A stretch of DNA of 64,000 nucleotides. Origin: Accumulibacter sp. Its GTDB lineage: Bacteria; Pseudomonadota; Gammaproteobacteria; Burkholderiales; Rhodocyclaceae. The notes under the pieces were generated by a model. The model was not told where the DNA came from and did no database searches. It saw nothing but the letters and a program-made list of their open reading frames with translations. Below, in pieces: positions 7,473 through 11,784 of the stretch (positions are counted from its first letter, which is position 1; each line of letters starts with the position of its first letter). The position numbers were made by a program, and so were the translations under genes. The DNA lies in contig JAFLDO010000006.1 of assembly GCA_017302455.1 (NCBI GenBank), positions 62,001 through 126,000 of the forward strand. The letters run 5' to 3'.

Positions 7473-7482
7473 CCCGATCAGG
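7473..7482 (+). repeat. Left target-site duplication of the ISAs1-family element
   Basis: CCCGATCAGG here recurs at 11775-11784, exactly outside the two imperfect terminal inverted repeats. Ten base pairs is within the range known for ISAs1-family insertions. Confidence 0.8.
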
Positions 7483-7576
7483 CAGGGTGGATTTGTCCTT
7501 CTGGTCAATAGTTAAAGAATCCGTGGGTTAGGTGCCGGCTATGGACATCGGGTAAGGGTGTCTGTATAAAGGGCGG

Positions 7577-8909
7577 ATGGAAGCGGAACTGGATGCGTTG
7601 CGCGTGCGCCCGATCGAGAAGAGCGAGGAGGGTCGCTATCGGGAGTTGATGGCGCAACACCACTATCTGGGCGATCTGGCGAAGATCGGCCACACGCTAT
7701 GGTACGTCGCTACCAGCGGCGAGGACTGGGCAGCCCTGCTCAGTTTTTCGGCCGCGGCGTGGAAATGTGGGGTTCGGGATCACTGGATCGGGTGGGATTT
7801 CCGGCATCAGTATGATCGTCTGGGGTTGATCGCCAACAATAGCCGTTTTCTGATTCTGCCTGACTGGCACCGCCCGAATCTGGGTTCGAAAGTCCTTTCG
7901 CTGTGCCAGGAGAGGATCGTCGCGGATTGGCAGGATCGTTTCGGCAAGCGGATCCTCCTGCTCGAGACCTTTGTCGATCCTTCGCGTTTTCAGGGAACGG
8001 TCTACCGGGCCGCGAACTGGACGTGCCTGGGGCTGACCCAGGGGTTTCGTCGTACCCGTGCCGGGTACACGGCCCACTCGGAGTCCCCCAAGCTGGTTTT
8101 CGTCAGGCCGCTGCAGCGCGATGCGCCAGCCCAGCTTTCGCGCTCGTTTCTCCCCCCCGCCTATGCTCAAGGAGTGCCCCGAATGATGCTCAGCGCCGAA
8201 CAGATGCGTCTGCTTCCCGACTTCTTTGCCGCCATCCCGGATCCGCGGCGCGCTCAAGGCAAGCGCCATCCTCTGCCGAGCGTGCTGGCTATGGCGACGG
8301 CCGCAACCCTGTGCGGGATGCGCGGCTACAAAGCCATCGCCGGTTGGGCGAAAGACCTCAAACCGCGAGCGCGCGAACGCTTTCGCTGTCGTCGCGAGAA
8401 GGGGATCTACCGCGTGCCGAGTGAATTCATCTTTCGTGACGTCTTGATTCGTGTCGATCCGACTGCGCTGGATGAGGCCTGCCGGCAGTGGAACCAAGCG
8501 TACGCGCGCGACGACAAGAGTATGGCCGTGGATGGCAAGACAATGCGCAACGCCAAGGATGAACAGGGGGCGCAAACGCATATCATGAGCGTCGTTGGTC
8601 ATGAGACTGGCACCTGTCACACCCAAAAAAAGTCGGCACATTGCCCGTAGAAGACCAGGAAGAAGCCAAGCAAACCAATGAGATCGGAATGTTCATCCCG
8701 CTGCTCGACGGCATCGACATTCAGGGGAAGGACATCACCGCCGATGCGCTCCTCACGCAGCGCAAGCTGGCCGCGTATGTGGTGAGCCGGGAAGCCCACT
8801 ACCACTTCACCGTCAAAGGCAATCAGCCCACCCTGCAGGCCGATATCGCGCTCCTTTTTCAGAATCGACAGGCGTCCGACCAGGTAGTCGTGTCACCCCC
8901 CTGATCATG
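7577..8909 (+). pseudogene. DruA (DUF4338)-ISAs1 fusion transposase, 5' part
   Basis: Residues 15-165 match the DUF4338/DruA core, with HYLG, RDHWIGWD, LIANNSRFLILP, LLLETFVDPSRF and YRAANW. From about residue 200 the protein is an ISAs1/H-repeat transposase (PDFFAAIPDPRRAQGKRH, VDGKTMRNAKDEQG, THIMSVVGHETG). A -1 shift at a run of seven A (8624-8630) moves the reading from the frame ending at 8650 to the one that continues PVEDQEE, KDITADALLTQRKLA and VKGNQPTLQADIALLF. A run of six C (8896-8901) then adds a +1 shift and a TGA at 8902. The gene resumes at 11283 beyond the inserted IS. Confidence 0.88.
8900..8909 (+). repeat. Left target-site duplication of the nested IS4-type element
   Basis: CCTGATCATG at this position is repeated at 11283-11292 on the far side of the nested element. 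Joining the two flanks at one copy restores the ISAs1 transposase reading through an Asp-His-Gly segment, apart from the extra C noted in the pseudogene. Confidence 0.88.
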
Positions 8910-11282
8910 CTGTGGTCCTTACCCTCACTTGACTCCGTCGCCACTCAAGGCGCTTGGGGGGGCGACAGATAGCCTTCGGGGTAGGAGCGCCAGATTCGAG
9001 GCGGAGGTGAGCGGGTGAAGATGTTGTACATCTGGACGGCCACGTCGAGATGCTGCAGACCCCGCCAGAGCACCTGGGTGCCGGGCGGGCCATCGCGGCG
9101 ACGTCCGAGGTGGCCACCCATCTTCGCCAGCATGCGCACCGCTTGGGCCATGCTGGGGGGTTCATCGGGGGGTAGCGAGGTCTGGTAGTGATAGCAGTGC
9201 AGGGCCTTCCATTCCACTTCTTCGAAGAAGACAGTGCATGGGTGATCGGGGACCTCGCGCCCGAGCATCGTCAAGTGGTAGATGCGCCACGCCACCACCA
9301 TGTCGATCCCCAGGCACGCCTGCAAACGCGTGGCGGTGCCGAGTTGGCGGTCCTTGATCCGACAGCCGCTCTTCAGGGTGCGGTGGAAGACCTCGATCCC
9401 CCAGCGTGCGGCGTACCACTCGGCGCGTTCAACGGCATCGTCGAAGGTATGAACCGGCACGCTGGTCAGCAACATCCACTCGATTGGCTCGGGATCGTCA
9501 GTGTTCTCTTCGCGTAGATGAACCGCCCACAGATCAACCGCCGGCAGGCGACTACCGCGCGGCGGCTGCAGCGTCACTTCGGCGAAGCGCACGGCTAGCA
9601 CCACCGTACGCGCCGAGCGGTTGCCCCGCCGGGGAATGCGCAGTGTGATTTCGCCGACGGGCGACTGGCGGCTGATGACGTCCCACAGGGCTTCGTTCTC
9701 CACTCGCCGCTGGCGGGTACGCTCGGCCCGCACCAGCAACTTCGGTCCTGCCGGATCGCGCGCGGCCAGCGCAAACAGATCATGAATGTCCGACTCACGA
9801 TCACCCATGCTCACCAACAGGGTTTCCGGGCACAGCGCCTGGACTTCAGCCACCCGAGCGAAGCTGTTCAGCCACTTCATGCTCTCCTTTTCCTCGATCG
9901 GCAGATGCTTTCGCTCCTCGCTCTTGCCGTGCTCGTCGGGTTCGCGTGCCCAGCACTGGGCGTCGAGGATGCCGAGCGGAGTCCCCTCGACGCTGAACGC
10001 CACGGTGTCGTGCAGCATCAAGCCGACGGCCTGGTCGCGCGTGGTGTTGACTGGGCCCAGTCCTTCGGTTGCGGGATGATGCGAATAGTTGAGCGTCGTC
10101 GTATCCTGCGGGACCAGGACGATTCGGTGCGCTCGAATGCGCTCGATGGTCGCTTCGATGTGCGGGGTGAGAATCGCTTGCAGGTTCACCTGGCGGTTAC
10201 GGAGAAAGCGATAAGCGGCCAGCGTACCGGCGCGCGAAGCGCAGGCTTCGGGTACATTCGCCTGTGGGCGATGGCAGAAGTTGAGCGCAAGGGAAATCAA
10301 ACGTCGTTTGAGGCGCTCATCGTACCAGCGAACGGTGGCAAACTCTCCTTCCGCCCAGTTGCTTGCCGGCACACGGGGCGGGGTGTTCAGGCCATCGCGG
10401 GGTTTGGCGGACAGCAACTCGCGCCATTCGCTGTGCAACGGCAGGAGGAAGATCTGTTTGGCGACCCCATCACGGCGCCCCGAGGTGGTCCCGACGTCGA
10501 TCCAGTTGGCCGCGCGGTAGCAGTGGCCGGAAAAGCGCGTCGGATCGACGAAGGTCTCCAGCAACAGCGGTCGCACGCCGTAGCGCGTTTCCCAGTCGGC
10601 CGGCAGTCGCCGGCTCGCGAGTCCAAGCACGTGCGAGGCGAGATTCGGCACCTGCACGCCCGGCCGGATCAGGAAGCGGGCATTCGCCACGACCCGCCGC
10701 AGGTTGTGCCGACGCGCGGCATCCTCCCAGCCAATCGCCTGGTCACGCGCCTTCATGGCCCAACTCGCCGAGGTGAAGGCGAGAGCGCCCAGCCAGCCGT
10801 AAGGCTCGCAGCGCACCAGGTAGCGCAACTGCGCACCACACAGCGGCTGCTCGCCCAGGTAGTGCTCGCGCGCTATCAGTGCGCGCCAGGTTTGTGCTTC
10901 CCGACTCCCCGCCTCGACGGCAACCAACTCCACGGCACCCAGCGCTGCCAGCGGCCCACTGAGGCGGAGGTCTTCCACTGCCCGCGTGGTCGGTTGGCGT
11001 GGCGTGAATCGGGCCCGGACGGCGGGAAGCTCAATGACCTGGCGCCGCACGAGCTGTGCCAACGCTTTGCGGCAGCCGCCTTCCTGCCAGCCGCCCGTCG
11101 CGGTACGCCAATCGAGCCACTCGCAAACCCGGCGCGACAGCGCCCGACGCGATATCTCCGGCACCGACGTGACGACCTCCCGGATTCGATCCAGAAGGTC
11201 AACGGAGAATTCCTGGCCGCACAGACGCATGCACAGAGCTTAGCGCTCACGGCTAACGGAGTCAAGTGTGTCGGCGGTTCAG
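8910..11282 (-). mobile_element. IS4/Tn5-type insertion sequence with DruA-domain transposase, nested in the ISAs1 element
   Basis: The 2373-bp element has CTG at both ends and a shared subterminal 13-mer, CACTTGACTCCGT, in inverted orientation (left 8926-8938, right 11256-11268). The copies lie 16 and 14 bases from the tips. It is flanked by a perfect 10-bp duplication, and its single large gene fills nearly all of it on the minus strand. The intact frame and clean duplication indicate a recent insertion. It split an ISAs1 transposase gene that carries three further lesions. Confidence 0.88.
8945..11230 (-). CDS. DruA (DUF4338)-IS4/Tn5-like fusion transposase
   Basis: This 761-residue protein has two parts. 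Residues 1 to about 275 resemble DruA: a helical N-terminal segment (RRALSRRVCEWLDW), then REHYLG, RDQAIGWED, VVANARFLIRPG, LLLETFVDPTRF and YRAANW. The rest is a Tn5-like DDE transposase. It has an SNWAEGEF start typical of Tn5 transposase N-domains, VLVPQDTTTLNY with the first Asp, SMGDRESDIHDLF with the second, and YAARWGIEVFHRTLK fitting Y-x2-R-x3-E-x6-K of the IS4 YREK motif. The C-terminal region (MAQAVRMLAKMGGHLGR) matches the Tn5 dimerisation segment. The frame is intact, so the element may be active. The role of the DruA part in transposition is unknown. Confidence 0.9.
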   Translation of the reverse strand: MRLCGQEFSVDLLDRIREVVTSVPEISRRALSRRVCEWLDWRTATGGWQEGGCRKALAQLVRRQVIELPAVRARFTPRQPTTRAVEDLRLSGPLAALGAVELVAVEAGSREAQTWRALIAREHYLGEQPLCGAQLRYLVRCEPYGWLGALAFTSASWAMKARDQAIGWEDAARRHNLRRVVANARFLIRPGVQVPNLASHVLGLASRRLPADWETRYGVRPLLLETFVDPTRFSGHCYRAANWIDVGTTSGRRDGVAKQIFLLPLHSEWRELLSAKPRDGLNTPPRVPASNWAEGEFATVRWYDERLKRRLISLALNFCHRPQANVPEACASRAGTLAAYRFLRNRQVNLQAILTPHIEATIERIRAHRIVLVPQDTTTLNYSHHPATEGLGPVNTTRDQAVGLMLHDTVAFSVEGTPLGILDAQCWAREPDEHGKSEERKHLPIEEKESMKWLNSFARVAEVQALCPETLLVSMGDRESDIHDLFALAARDPAGPKLLVRAERTRQRRVENEALWDVISRQSPVGEITLRIPRRGNRSARTVVLAVRFAEVTLQPPRGSRLPAVDLWAVHLREENTDDPEPIEWMLLTSVPVHTFDDAVERAEWYAARWGIEVFHRTLKSGCRIKDRQLGTATRLQACLGIDMVVAWRIYHLTMLGREVPDHPCTVFFEEVEWKALHCYHYQTSLPPDEPPSMAQAVRMLAKMGGHLGRRRDGPPGTQVLWRGLQHLDVAVQMYNIFTRSPPPRIWRSYPEGYLSPPQAP

Positions 11283-11292
11283 CCTGATCATG
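11283..11292 (+). repeat. Right target-site duplication of the nested IS4-type element
   Basis: CCTGATCATG, identical to 8900-8909 and directly adjoining the CAG end of the nested element. Confidence 0.88.
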
Positions 11293-11747
11293 GACGCATC
11301 GAAACCCGACGGATTTAGTGCAGTACCGCGCTAAATTCCTATGTCGATTTCCCGCACGTTGGCCAAGTCTTCCTGATTGAGCGCGAGGTCGTCCACAAGA
11401 AAAGCAGGAAGCGAACGCTCGAAACCGCACTCGGGGTCACGAGTCGCCCTCCCGAACAAGCCGGGCCAAAACGTCTTATCGAAATCAACCGCGGCCACTG
11501 GACCATCGAAAACCGTTGCCACTATGTCATCGACTGGAACTTCGACGAGGACCGGAGCCGCATCCGAACCGGCCACGGTCCCGCGAACCTCTCCCGCCTT
11601 CGCCGATTCGCCGTCGGTATCCTTCACCACTTCTCGGACGGCAAGACCAGCATCACGCAAAAAATGGCCCACCTGAACCGCAACATCCGCTTGGTCTTTG
11701 ACTATCTGCGGATGACCACAAACTCCGTCGGCAACACCAACGCATGA
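11283..11747 (+). pseudogene. ISAs1-family transposase, 3' part
   Basis: Beyond the nested IS the same strand encodes the missing C-terminus: DHGRIETRRI, FPHVGQVFLIEREVVH, TSRPPEQAGPKR, INRGHWTIENRCHYVIDW with the conserved catalytic Glu, and FDEDRSRIRTGHGPANL. It ends RLVFDYLRMT and a TGA at 11745. The frame from the duplication to the stop is uninterrupted except for a TAG at 11316-11318 where relatives have Trp. This confirms that one ISAs1 gene was split by the nested element. It is not a separate gene. Confidence 0.88.
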
Positions 11748-11774
11748 AATCAGCCGGAGAACAAATTTACCGTG

Positions 11775-11784
11775 CCCGATCAGG
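11775..11784 (+). repeat. Right target-site duplication of the ISAs1-family element
   Basis: CCCGATCAGG, identical to 7473-7482, immediately outside the right terminal inverted repeat. Confidence 0.8.

Follow-up and report, generated by a model that had tools for sequence, protein, structure and literature searches.

A 64,000-nucleotide stretch of a genome of Accumulibacter sp. (contig JAFLDO010000006.1, positions 62,001 to 126,000; hereafter, the window) contains two nested insertion sequences, each of which encodes a DruA domain (PF14236, also known as DUF4338) fused to a transposase. We propose that DruA domains of this type are very probably enzymes related to Mom, the DNA modification protein of phage Mu. 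On balance, and arguing by analogy, we also favor a more specific role: transposon DruA would be a Mom-like accessory of insertion sequences, with a GNAT (Gcn5-related N-acetyltransferase) fold, that modifies DNA, probably using acyl-CoA, and that serves at least three families of DDE transposases. The two genes in the window are:

7577 to 8650, plus strand: open reading frame 1 (ORF1) of the outer element, with a probable Mom-like DruA domain (about residues 13 to 160) and the N-terminal part of an ISAs1 transposase, from Pfam

8945 to 11230, minus strand: the single gene of the inner element, encoding 761 amino acids, from Pfam, NCBIfam, and a structure model

Both proteins exceed the gathering cutoff of PF14236 (27 bits). 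In the outer protein, the match covers residues 13 to 157 (E = 5.9e-24, 85.2 bits) and is followed by DDE_Tnp_1_assoc (PF13808, E = 1.9e-21). In the inner protein, it covers residues 100 to 252 (E = 3.3e-36, 125.4 bits) and is followed by Tnp_DNA_bind and Dimer_Tnp_Tn5. The two DruA domains are identical at 65 of 143 aligned columns (45%), with a score of 302, while the best of 300 shuffles scored 59. An original prediction, made from the letters of the DNA, had assigned both N-terminal domains to DUF4338 and had considered them homologous to each other, and these results bear out both statements. The inner protein begins with a helical segment (residues 1 to 63) that we infer from the model to be similar to a winged helix-turn-helix; the DruA domain (about residues 96 to 265) and a Tn5-type DDE transposase (about residues 290 to 750) follow. 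The Tn5-type motif Y-(2)-R-(3)-E-(6)-K (YREK) is at residues 606 to 620.

How widespread are such domains? PF14236 had matches in 20 of 61 genomes (the window's genome and 60 relatives), with 18 above the cutoff, and all of these were within the window's genus. One genome of this genus (G011) has at least 31 DruA copies, which is a lower bound because 31 of 84 first-look candidates were scored; 30 of these copies lie in an open frame of 286 amino acids. A scan of genome contigs with an IS66-type query yielded at least 581 relatives. We kept 80 of these, whose loci were fetched with the peptide pattern G[TGH][CVS]Y[RKQ]A[AS]NW. The titles of the 80 contigs name Pseudomonadota, Acidobacteria, Planctomycetota, Bacillota, Actinomycetes, Nitrospira, and one archaeal metagenome-assembled genome, and the titles of such assemblies can err. 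Sixty-five of these loci (L147 to L211) were tabulated by their neighborhood, and the other 15, all from one genome, were examined as G011 elements. From all loci (L001 to L211) and the window, 100 unique domains were reduced to a nonredundant set of 80: domains with under 85% profile coverage or with X in their sequence were left out, and copies over 90% identical were merged. All 80 match PF14236 at E ≤ 0.1.

Most of these domains are next to a transposase. An IS66, IS4, or ISAs1 transposase is fused to the DruA domain, or lies within 700 bp on the same strand, in 70 of the 80 cases. The partners are IS66 in 47 cases, IS4 in 13, and ISAs1 in 10, and these proportions are skewed towards IS66, as the contig scan was ranked by similarity to an IS66-type query. 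Pfam adds L211 (IS66) and L178 (a DDE transposase) to the transposase-linked domains. Of the remaining eight, six (L150, L161, L164, L205, L028, and L087) are at or near a contig end, and L183 and L201 are unassigned. DruA and IS4 occur as DruA-IS4 fusions or as separate genes, in either order. The same three arrangements occur with ISAs1 (the separate genes being ISAs1-like). For IS66, either gene can come first, and one locus (L181) has an IS66-DruA fusion. In 59 pairs the two genes are split: their frames overlap in 49 pairs and abut within one base in 8, and gaps of 195 and 166 bases separate them in L165 and L188, respectively; these counts refer to stop-to-stop frames rather than to mapped start codons. 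At L178 (2410 to 4194, plus strand), the gene that abuts DruA encodes a DDE_Tnp_1 transposase of 595 amino acids that NCBIfam does not classify, so this is a possible fourth partner family.

The elements that carry DruA are mobile, and the domain is maintained. In G011, IS66 and DruA together form a repeat of 2708 to 2728 bp with terminal repeats GTAAGTATTCGG. We examined 22 of these loci; without three duplicates and L040, which lacks its left end, 18 distinct elements with both ends remain. Seventeen of the 18 have identical 8-bp flanks, and all 17 flanks are different from each other. The ratio of nonsynonymous to synonymous substitution rates (dN/dS), from a simple counting method and three pairs only, is lower for DruA than for its transposase in each pair: 0.162 and 0.211 for the inner element of the window and its second copy, 0.131 and 0.239 for an IS66-type pair, and 0.078 and 0.089 for an ISAs1-type pair. 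A tree of DruA (84 rows, with L178 and L211 labeled by hand from Pfam, and with good support for 36 of 81 inner branches) requires at least 9 changes of transposase family, with L178 as a state of its own, and at least 16 changes of arrangement. The two window domains are in separate clades: the inner one is with an ISAs1-like two-gene element (L082/L087, support 91/86), and the outer one groups with other DruA-ISAs1 fusions.

By these sequence comparisons, DruA resides in insertion sequences as one of their parts, is kept by purifying selection, and has repeatedly been exchanged between them. The original prediction's idea that the domain is a portable transposon accessory agrees with its three transposase families, both gene orders, fused and split forms, and repeated changes of partner. 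The accompanying suggestion of a part in target choice, donor-strand handling, or regulation is conjectural. That DruA is merely a chance neighbor, or a randomly captured gene with no function for the element, seems to us extremely improbable. The outer copy in the window looks broken, which speaks for it, but it does not fit with the association of 70 of 80 domains with three transposase families, with 9 or more partner changes, or with dN/dS values for DruA of 0.08 to 0.16. Nor does it fit with a genome that has 31 or more copies, 30 of them in the 286-residue open frame, and target duplications at 17 of 18 elements.

The similarity to Mom emerged from comparisons of folds and of profiles; sequence searches of the PDB with the window domain and with alignments of DruA gave nothing useful. 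The AlphaFold2 model of the IS66-type DruA (285 amino acids, mean predicted local distance difference test score [pLDDT] of 88.7) has three N-terminal helices, which may be similar to a winged helix-turn-helix, and a GNAT-type alpha/beta domain. In a Foldseek comparison to the PDB, its top match was Mom of phage Mu (8bv8, E = 2.4e-5, template modeling [TM] scores of 0.44 and 0.60), and 37 structures matched at E ≤ 0.001, with Mom, FeeM, and N-acetyltransferases at the top of the list. Against viral models, a Mom protein was in second place. The model of the DruA-IS4 fusion from the window (pLDDT 84.1) had Tn5 transposase as its first match (E = 6e-26), with GNATs next. By these models, the domain has a GNAT fold.

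Profiles are more specific. With hhalign, transposon DruA matched a profile of 14 Mom-type proteins with E = 1.4e-9 and 1.2e-10. As a control, it was compared to a profile of 13 ordinary GNATs from the same genome, which gave E = 0.013 and 0.038; on this control we rejected a generic kinship to GNATs. The Mom family of Pfam matched 55 of the 80 domains at E ≤ 0.1 (best, 2.2e-8), and other GNAT families matched none. The PHROG family of Mom-like DNA modification proteins (phrog_1384) matched six of six transposon DruAs and neither of two DruAs from Druantia systems; for the outer domain of the window, the E value was 5.8e-5. A search of 274 genomes of the class with PF25680 (Mom) found no match and was uninformative, as the controls were equally silent.

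Several results weigh against a special relationship to Mom. First, several ordinary GNATs reach TM scores that are as good as Mom's, and some are higher when normalized by the target. Mom was not among the 50 Foldseek matches listed for the whole fusion protein of the window. Second, some of the sequence matches are weak: the PHROG match of the inner window protein is just 0.0079, and a single Mom sequence from Mu matches with E = 0.007 to 0.009. Pfam's Mom family gives 15.9 bits for the outer window protein, below the cutoff of 27.1, and has no match at E ≤ 1 for the inner one. Judging from the profiles, then, the window domains are relatives of Mom, and closer to it than to other GNATs, without being formal members of Pfam's Mom family.

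As a GNAT, the domain might instead acylate a protein. Amines of proteins or of small molecules are the targets of many GNATs, and DruA could regulate transposition by modifying the transposase that it accompanies, RNA polymerase, or a host protein that bends DNA or takes part in replication. Fusion or co-translation puts the transposase within reach, and the TM scores of ordinary GNATs are similar to Mom's. Phage GNATs that modify host proteins are described in PMC7824862. However, it is Mom, rather than ordinary GNATs, that the sequence profiles link to the domain, and we consider protein acylation unlikely, if worth keeping in mind.

The relationship to Mom also suggests an active site. In the window, the putative active-site residues span:

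7661 to 8017, plus strand: H29, R67, R90, S104, E130, D134, Y143, and N147 of the outer (ISAs1) DruA

10505 to 10864, minus strand: H123, R162, R185, S199, E225, D229, Y238, and N242 of the inner DruA

Among 14 aligned Mom proteins from phages, H48, Y49, G71, E98, D139, G146, Y149, N153, and G158 are invariant and R101 and S114 are nearly so. In the profile alignment, H48, R101, S114, and D139 of Mom face H28, R89, S103, and D/E133 of DruA, and G146, Y149, N153, and G158 face G139, Y142, N146, and G151 (numbered by the first row of the 80-domain alignment). The two families thus share the residue order His, Arg, Ser, Asp/Glu, Gly, Tyr, Asn, Gly, with about 11 to 20% identity in the alignments. 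These positions are nearly invariant across the 80 DruA domains: H28 is conserved in 79, R89 in 80, S103 in 79, D/E133 in 75, G139 in 80, Y142 in 79, N146 in 78, and G151 in 80. R66 (in RD..IGW) and E129 (in ETF) are also invariant in DruA, and both window domains have the whole Mom-type set. The crystal structure of Mom is titled "inactive mutant S124A" and has alanine at S114 of the phage record; therefore, a residue that is known to be relevant to Mom's activity corresponds to the conserved serine of DruA.

Two caveats about conservation weigh on the other side. At the position of Mom's aspartate, 50 of the 80 domains have Glu and 25 have Asp, with Gln in 4 others and Ala in 1. Also, the peptide pattern that fetched the contig loci favors Y, A, N, and W and inflates the counts in these columns; it has no bearing on the columns of His, Arg, Ser, and Glu. 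The conserved motifs had been suggested to look like an active site, and they do fit one, because they coincide with the motifs of Mu-type Mom proteins. DruA differs from Mom in its conserved RD..IGW stretch, in its helical N terminus (outside of the ISAs1 fusions), and in its location beside the transposases of insertion sequences. Mu is itself a transposing phage.

The helical N terminus raises the question of whether DruA could be a noncatalytic module for DNA binding or assembly, involved in recognizing ends or choosing targets. Such helices are present in models of both IS66-type and IS4-type DruA, and the N termini are related in sequence across the IS4, IS66, and two-gene ISAs1 types. 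Furthermore, ordinary IS66 elements need TnpA and TnpB, and the 2.7-kb IS66-DruA element has room for the transposase and DruA alone; DruA would perhaps replace the usual accessory genes. On the other hand, the set of Mom-type residues is kept in 75 to 80 of 80 domains, and ISAs1-fused members retain these residues yet have no match to the helical N terminus. We rate a noncatalytic role as rather unlikely and continue to favor a Mom-like enzyme.

We then considered DruA's namesake. According to PMC7251935, the Druantia system consists of druA with its partners druB to druE. Druantia-type DruA (about 400 amino acids) is in the same Pfam family as the transposon type, and its profile, from 10 full-length rows (8 distinct), matches that of the transposon type at E = 2.5e-10 over the shared G..RY...RD..IGW core. 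Unlike the transposon type, it forms a deep, separate branch and has its own N- and C-terminal parts. The IS66, IS4, and ISAs1 queries had no match in the five full-length Druantia-type loci of our class sample. Its match to Mom is just 0.036. All 10 rows have GKL, with glycine at the position of Mom's serine. At the expected place of the histidine, one column outside the profile alignment, they have tryptophan, and some rows have a histidine one or two residues earlier. In the tree, four Druantia rows are behind a branch of length 4.5. By profile, then, transposon DruA is intermediate between Mom and Druantia DruA. The original prediction had hinted that Druantia may have taken its domain from mobile DNA; the distant, glycine-bearing Druantia branch fits divergence in either direction, and the branch is too long to decide the direction of descent. 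The name DruA does not transfer a function to the transposon type, and we discarded Druantia DruA as the nearest functional guide given the glycine at Mom's serine position in 10 of 10 rows.

Could DruA nevertheless be cargo that serves the host, as a Druantia-type anti-phage gene carried by transposons? The common Pfam family and the match between the two profiles (2.5e-10) would favor this. However, the elements in the window and the IS66-DruA elements are too small for other Druantia genes, and PADLOC's DruA model barely matches: E = 0.0048 for the inner window protein and no match for the outer one. (With so few matches, we dropped PADLOC as a classifier of transposon DruA domains.) By these tests, the elements themselves do not form a Druantia system. 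The very long branch and the difference at Mom's serine also separate the two forms. We consider the cargo explanation quite improbable.

The class sample comprises 369 genomes, and PF14236 is present in 17 of them, including the window's own. Among the other 16, seven have the transposon type, five have the full-length Druantia type, one (G151) has a Druantia-like fragment, one (G128) has a protein of 1244 amino acids, and two (G327 and G267) have short remnants. Because 7 of the 16 carry the transposon type, PF14236 alone is no sign of a Druantia system. Directly adjoining one full-length Druantia-type DruA is a frame with a NurA domain (L103, 3601 to 4878, minus strand).

The domain also occurs elsewhere. 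In PMC10853773, DUF4338 has been called a GNAT domain and is fused to DndF. Those proteins share the Pfam domain and the GNAT assignment with DruA, but there the domain is part of a defense ATPase, and no transposons are named alongside it in the passage on it. In our data, four loci have PF14236 or PADLOC-DruA matches in two separated pieces, in frames of 702 to 1297 amino acids (L118, 182 to 3913; L122, 3 to 3233; L123, 2304 to 6194; and L124, 3483 to 5588, minus strand). Three of the four were scanned with Pfam, and L122 and L123 also have weak matches to AAA ATPases. These loci are perhaps a third context of the domain, like the published DndF fusions.

What would a Mom-like enzyme do for an insertion sequence? 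Mom transfers an acyl group from acyl-CoA to N6 of adenine, as described in PMC7824862. By this analogy we infer catalysis, use of CoA, and a benefit to the element for transposon DruA, and we think it reasonably likely that DNA is the substrate. Its own helical N terminus would bring DruA to the DNA, or its transposase would, through fusion or co-translation. DruA would then most likely add a small acyl-type group to a base, by analogy with Mom at N6 of adenine, at the element's ends, across the freshly moved element, or at the target. The modification may shelter moving DNA, whether excised or newly inserted, from the host's nucleases. Alternatively, it may mark the ends, either for or against further transposition.

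If the shelter were mainly for DNA that passes from cell to cell, then we might expect DruA on plasmids and phages, and it is rare there. A search with IS66-type DruA matched just 2 of 72,556 plasmid records and 0 of 50,697 phage records, and viral contigs gave four loci. On one of the plasmids (pTs485), the DUF4338 gene has no directly adjacent transposase, in a gene table that is incomplete; on the other, the fused protein is annotated plainly as an ISAs1 transposase. This rarity is an argument against transfer between cells as its main role. One viral contig of 42.7 kb has a DruA relative near either end, in opposite orientations (L275 and L276).

The structure of the locus in the window supports the placement of both domains within insertion sequences. 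Besides the two genes, its features are:

7482 to 11775, plus strand: outer ISAs1-type element, the DruA-ISAs1 carrier, with imperfect inverted terminal repeats GCAGGGTGGATTTGTCCTTCTGG and GCACGGTAAATTTGTTCTCCGGC

7474 to 7481 (left) and 11776 to 11783 (right): identical 8-bp target-site duplications of the outer element, CCGATCAG

8910 to 11282, minus strand: inner IS4/Tn5-type element of 2373 bp, with ends CTG...CACTTGACTCCGT and imperfect inverted terminal repeats

8900 to 8909 (left) and 11283 to 11292 (right): identical 10-bp target-site duplications of the inner element, CCTGATCATG

8641 to 8904, plus strand: ORF2, the ISAs1 transposase continued in the -1 frame (NCBIfam ISAs1, E = 4.9e-15)

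11293 to 11775, plus strand: 3' remainder of the interrupted ISAs1 element, into which a blastn match to related ISAs1-DruA loci extends

The outer element, which is 1911 bp after subtracting the inner insertion and one duplication, is split by the inner one, and each has its own terminal repeats and target duplication. The inner element has a Tn5-type transposase with YREK and the outer element has an ISAs1 transposase, as is characteristic of IS4/Tn5-type and ISAs1-type elements. The inner protein matches NCBIfam's IS4_3 above the cutoff (E = 3.1e-123). The outer gene is in pieces, and its two parts score 49.4 and 55.5 bits for NCBIfam's ISAs1, both below the 70-bit cutoff that its relatives L051 and L119 pass. 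Thus, the nested ISAs1-type and IS4/Tn5-type transposases of the original prediction are real. Two details of the layout needed correction: the inner gene is on the minus strand, and the gene of the outer transposase does not form a single open frame.

ORF2 stops at 8902 to 8904, right at the inner insertion. The same stop is present in the empty site, and the 3' remainder offers no open continuation of ORF2. Because of the frame change at an A7 tract, and because this stop does not depend on the inner insertion, the outer copy looks broken. The same genome contains another copy of the inner element (L053), which is 93% identical and is flanked by a 10-bp duplication of its own, GTCGAACATG (as judged by eye). 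Another genome of the genus also carries the nested locus (L057, at G021:C6:34000-44000), with 100% identity across the 2.8 kb that were compared.

The frame change has a probable explanation. It involves one further feature:

8624 to 8632, plus strand: A7 tract CAAAAAAAG, read as CAA AAA AAG in ORF1 (an A_AAA_AAG heptamer), the apparent site of the -1 frame change of the ISAs1 gene

In one clade of DruA-ISAs1 genes, the switch to the -1 frame is located exactly at CAA AAA AAG TC. Of 10 two-frame loci, 9 have the heptamer A_AAA_AAG in the zero frame (the window, L055, L043, L112 to L114, L116, L117, and L144); these correspond to about six independent cases, as L112 to L114 and L116 to L117 are near copies and L144 has pieces of ISAs1 only. 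L090 has six A's, or one fewer; L051 has eight A's and a single open frame; and L119 has no A tract. Heptamers of this type drive -1 frameshifting in dnaX and in several families of insertion sequences. Judging by the sequence, these genes likely use programmed -1 frameshifting or slippage at the A tract. A downstream stem-loop is predicted at -12 to -18 kcal/mol in the relatives and at merely -2.4 kcal/mol in the window copy, and we dropped it as a frameshift element given this weak fold.

Insertion sequences of the IS4 (Tn5/IS50-like), ISAs1, and IS66 families share terminal repeats and target duplications of 8 to 10 bp with the elements studied here. Unlike ordinary members of these families, the elements with DruA additionally house a Mom-like domain or gene as one of their own components. 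What appears to be new is this combination of known transposase families with a probable Mom-like enzyme; the GNAT assignment of DUF4338 was already in print (PMC10853773). In the open-access literature, we found no report that links DUF4338 or DruA to transposases or to Mom; subscription literature was mostly uncovered, so absence in print is unproven. The view that DruA has no enzymatic role that can be named does not hold, given that published GNAT assignment and the similarity of the transposon branch to Mom.

More tentatively, and with a good chance of being wrong, insertion sequences of at least three DDE families may mark themselves: each would carry its own Mom-type base modifier, linked physically to the transposase or co-translated with it, to label its ends or its newly transposed DNA, which would shield that DNA from restriction and nucleases or would tell used ends from unused ones. 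Mom of Mu and the DruA of Druantia would then be relatives from one transposon-borne lineage of modification enzymes, with Druantia as a branch that has lost Mom's serine.

The kinship to Mom gives DUF4338 a testable function and predicts its key residues. Base modification is known from phages and from restriction systems. If our interpretation is true, widespread insertion sequences would carry a modification enzyme as part of their transposition machinery, which would add a new level to the biology of transposons.

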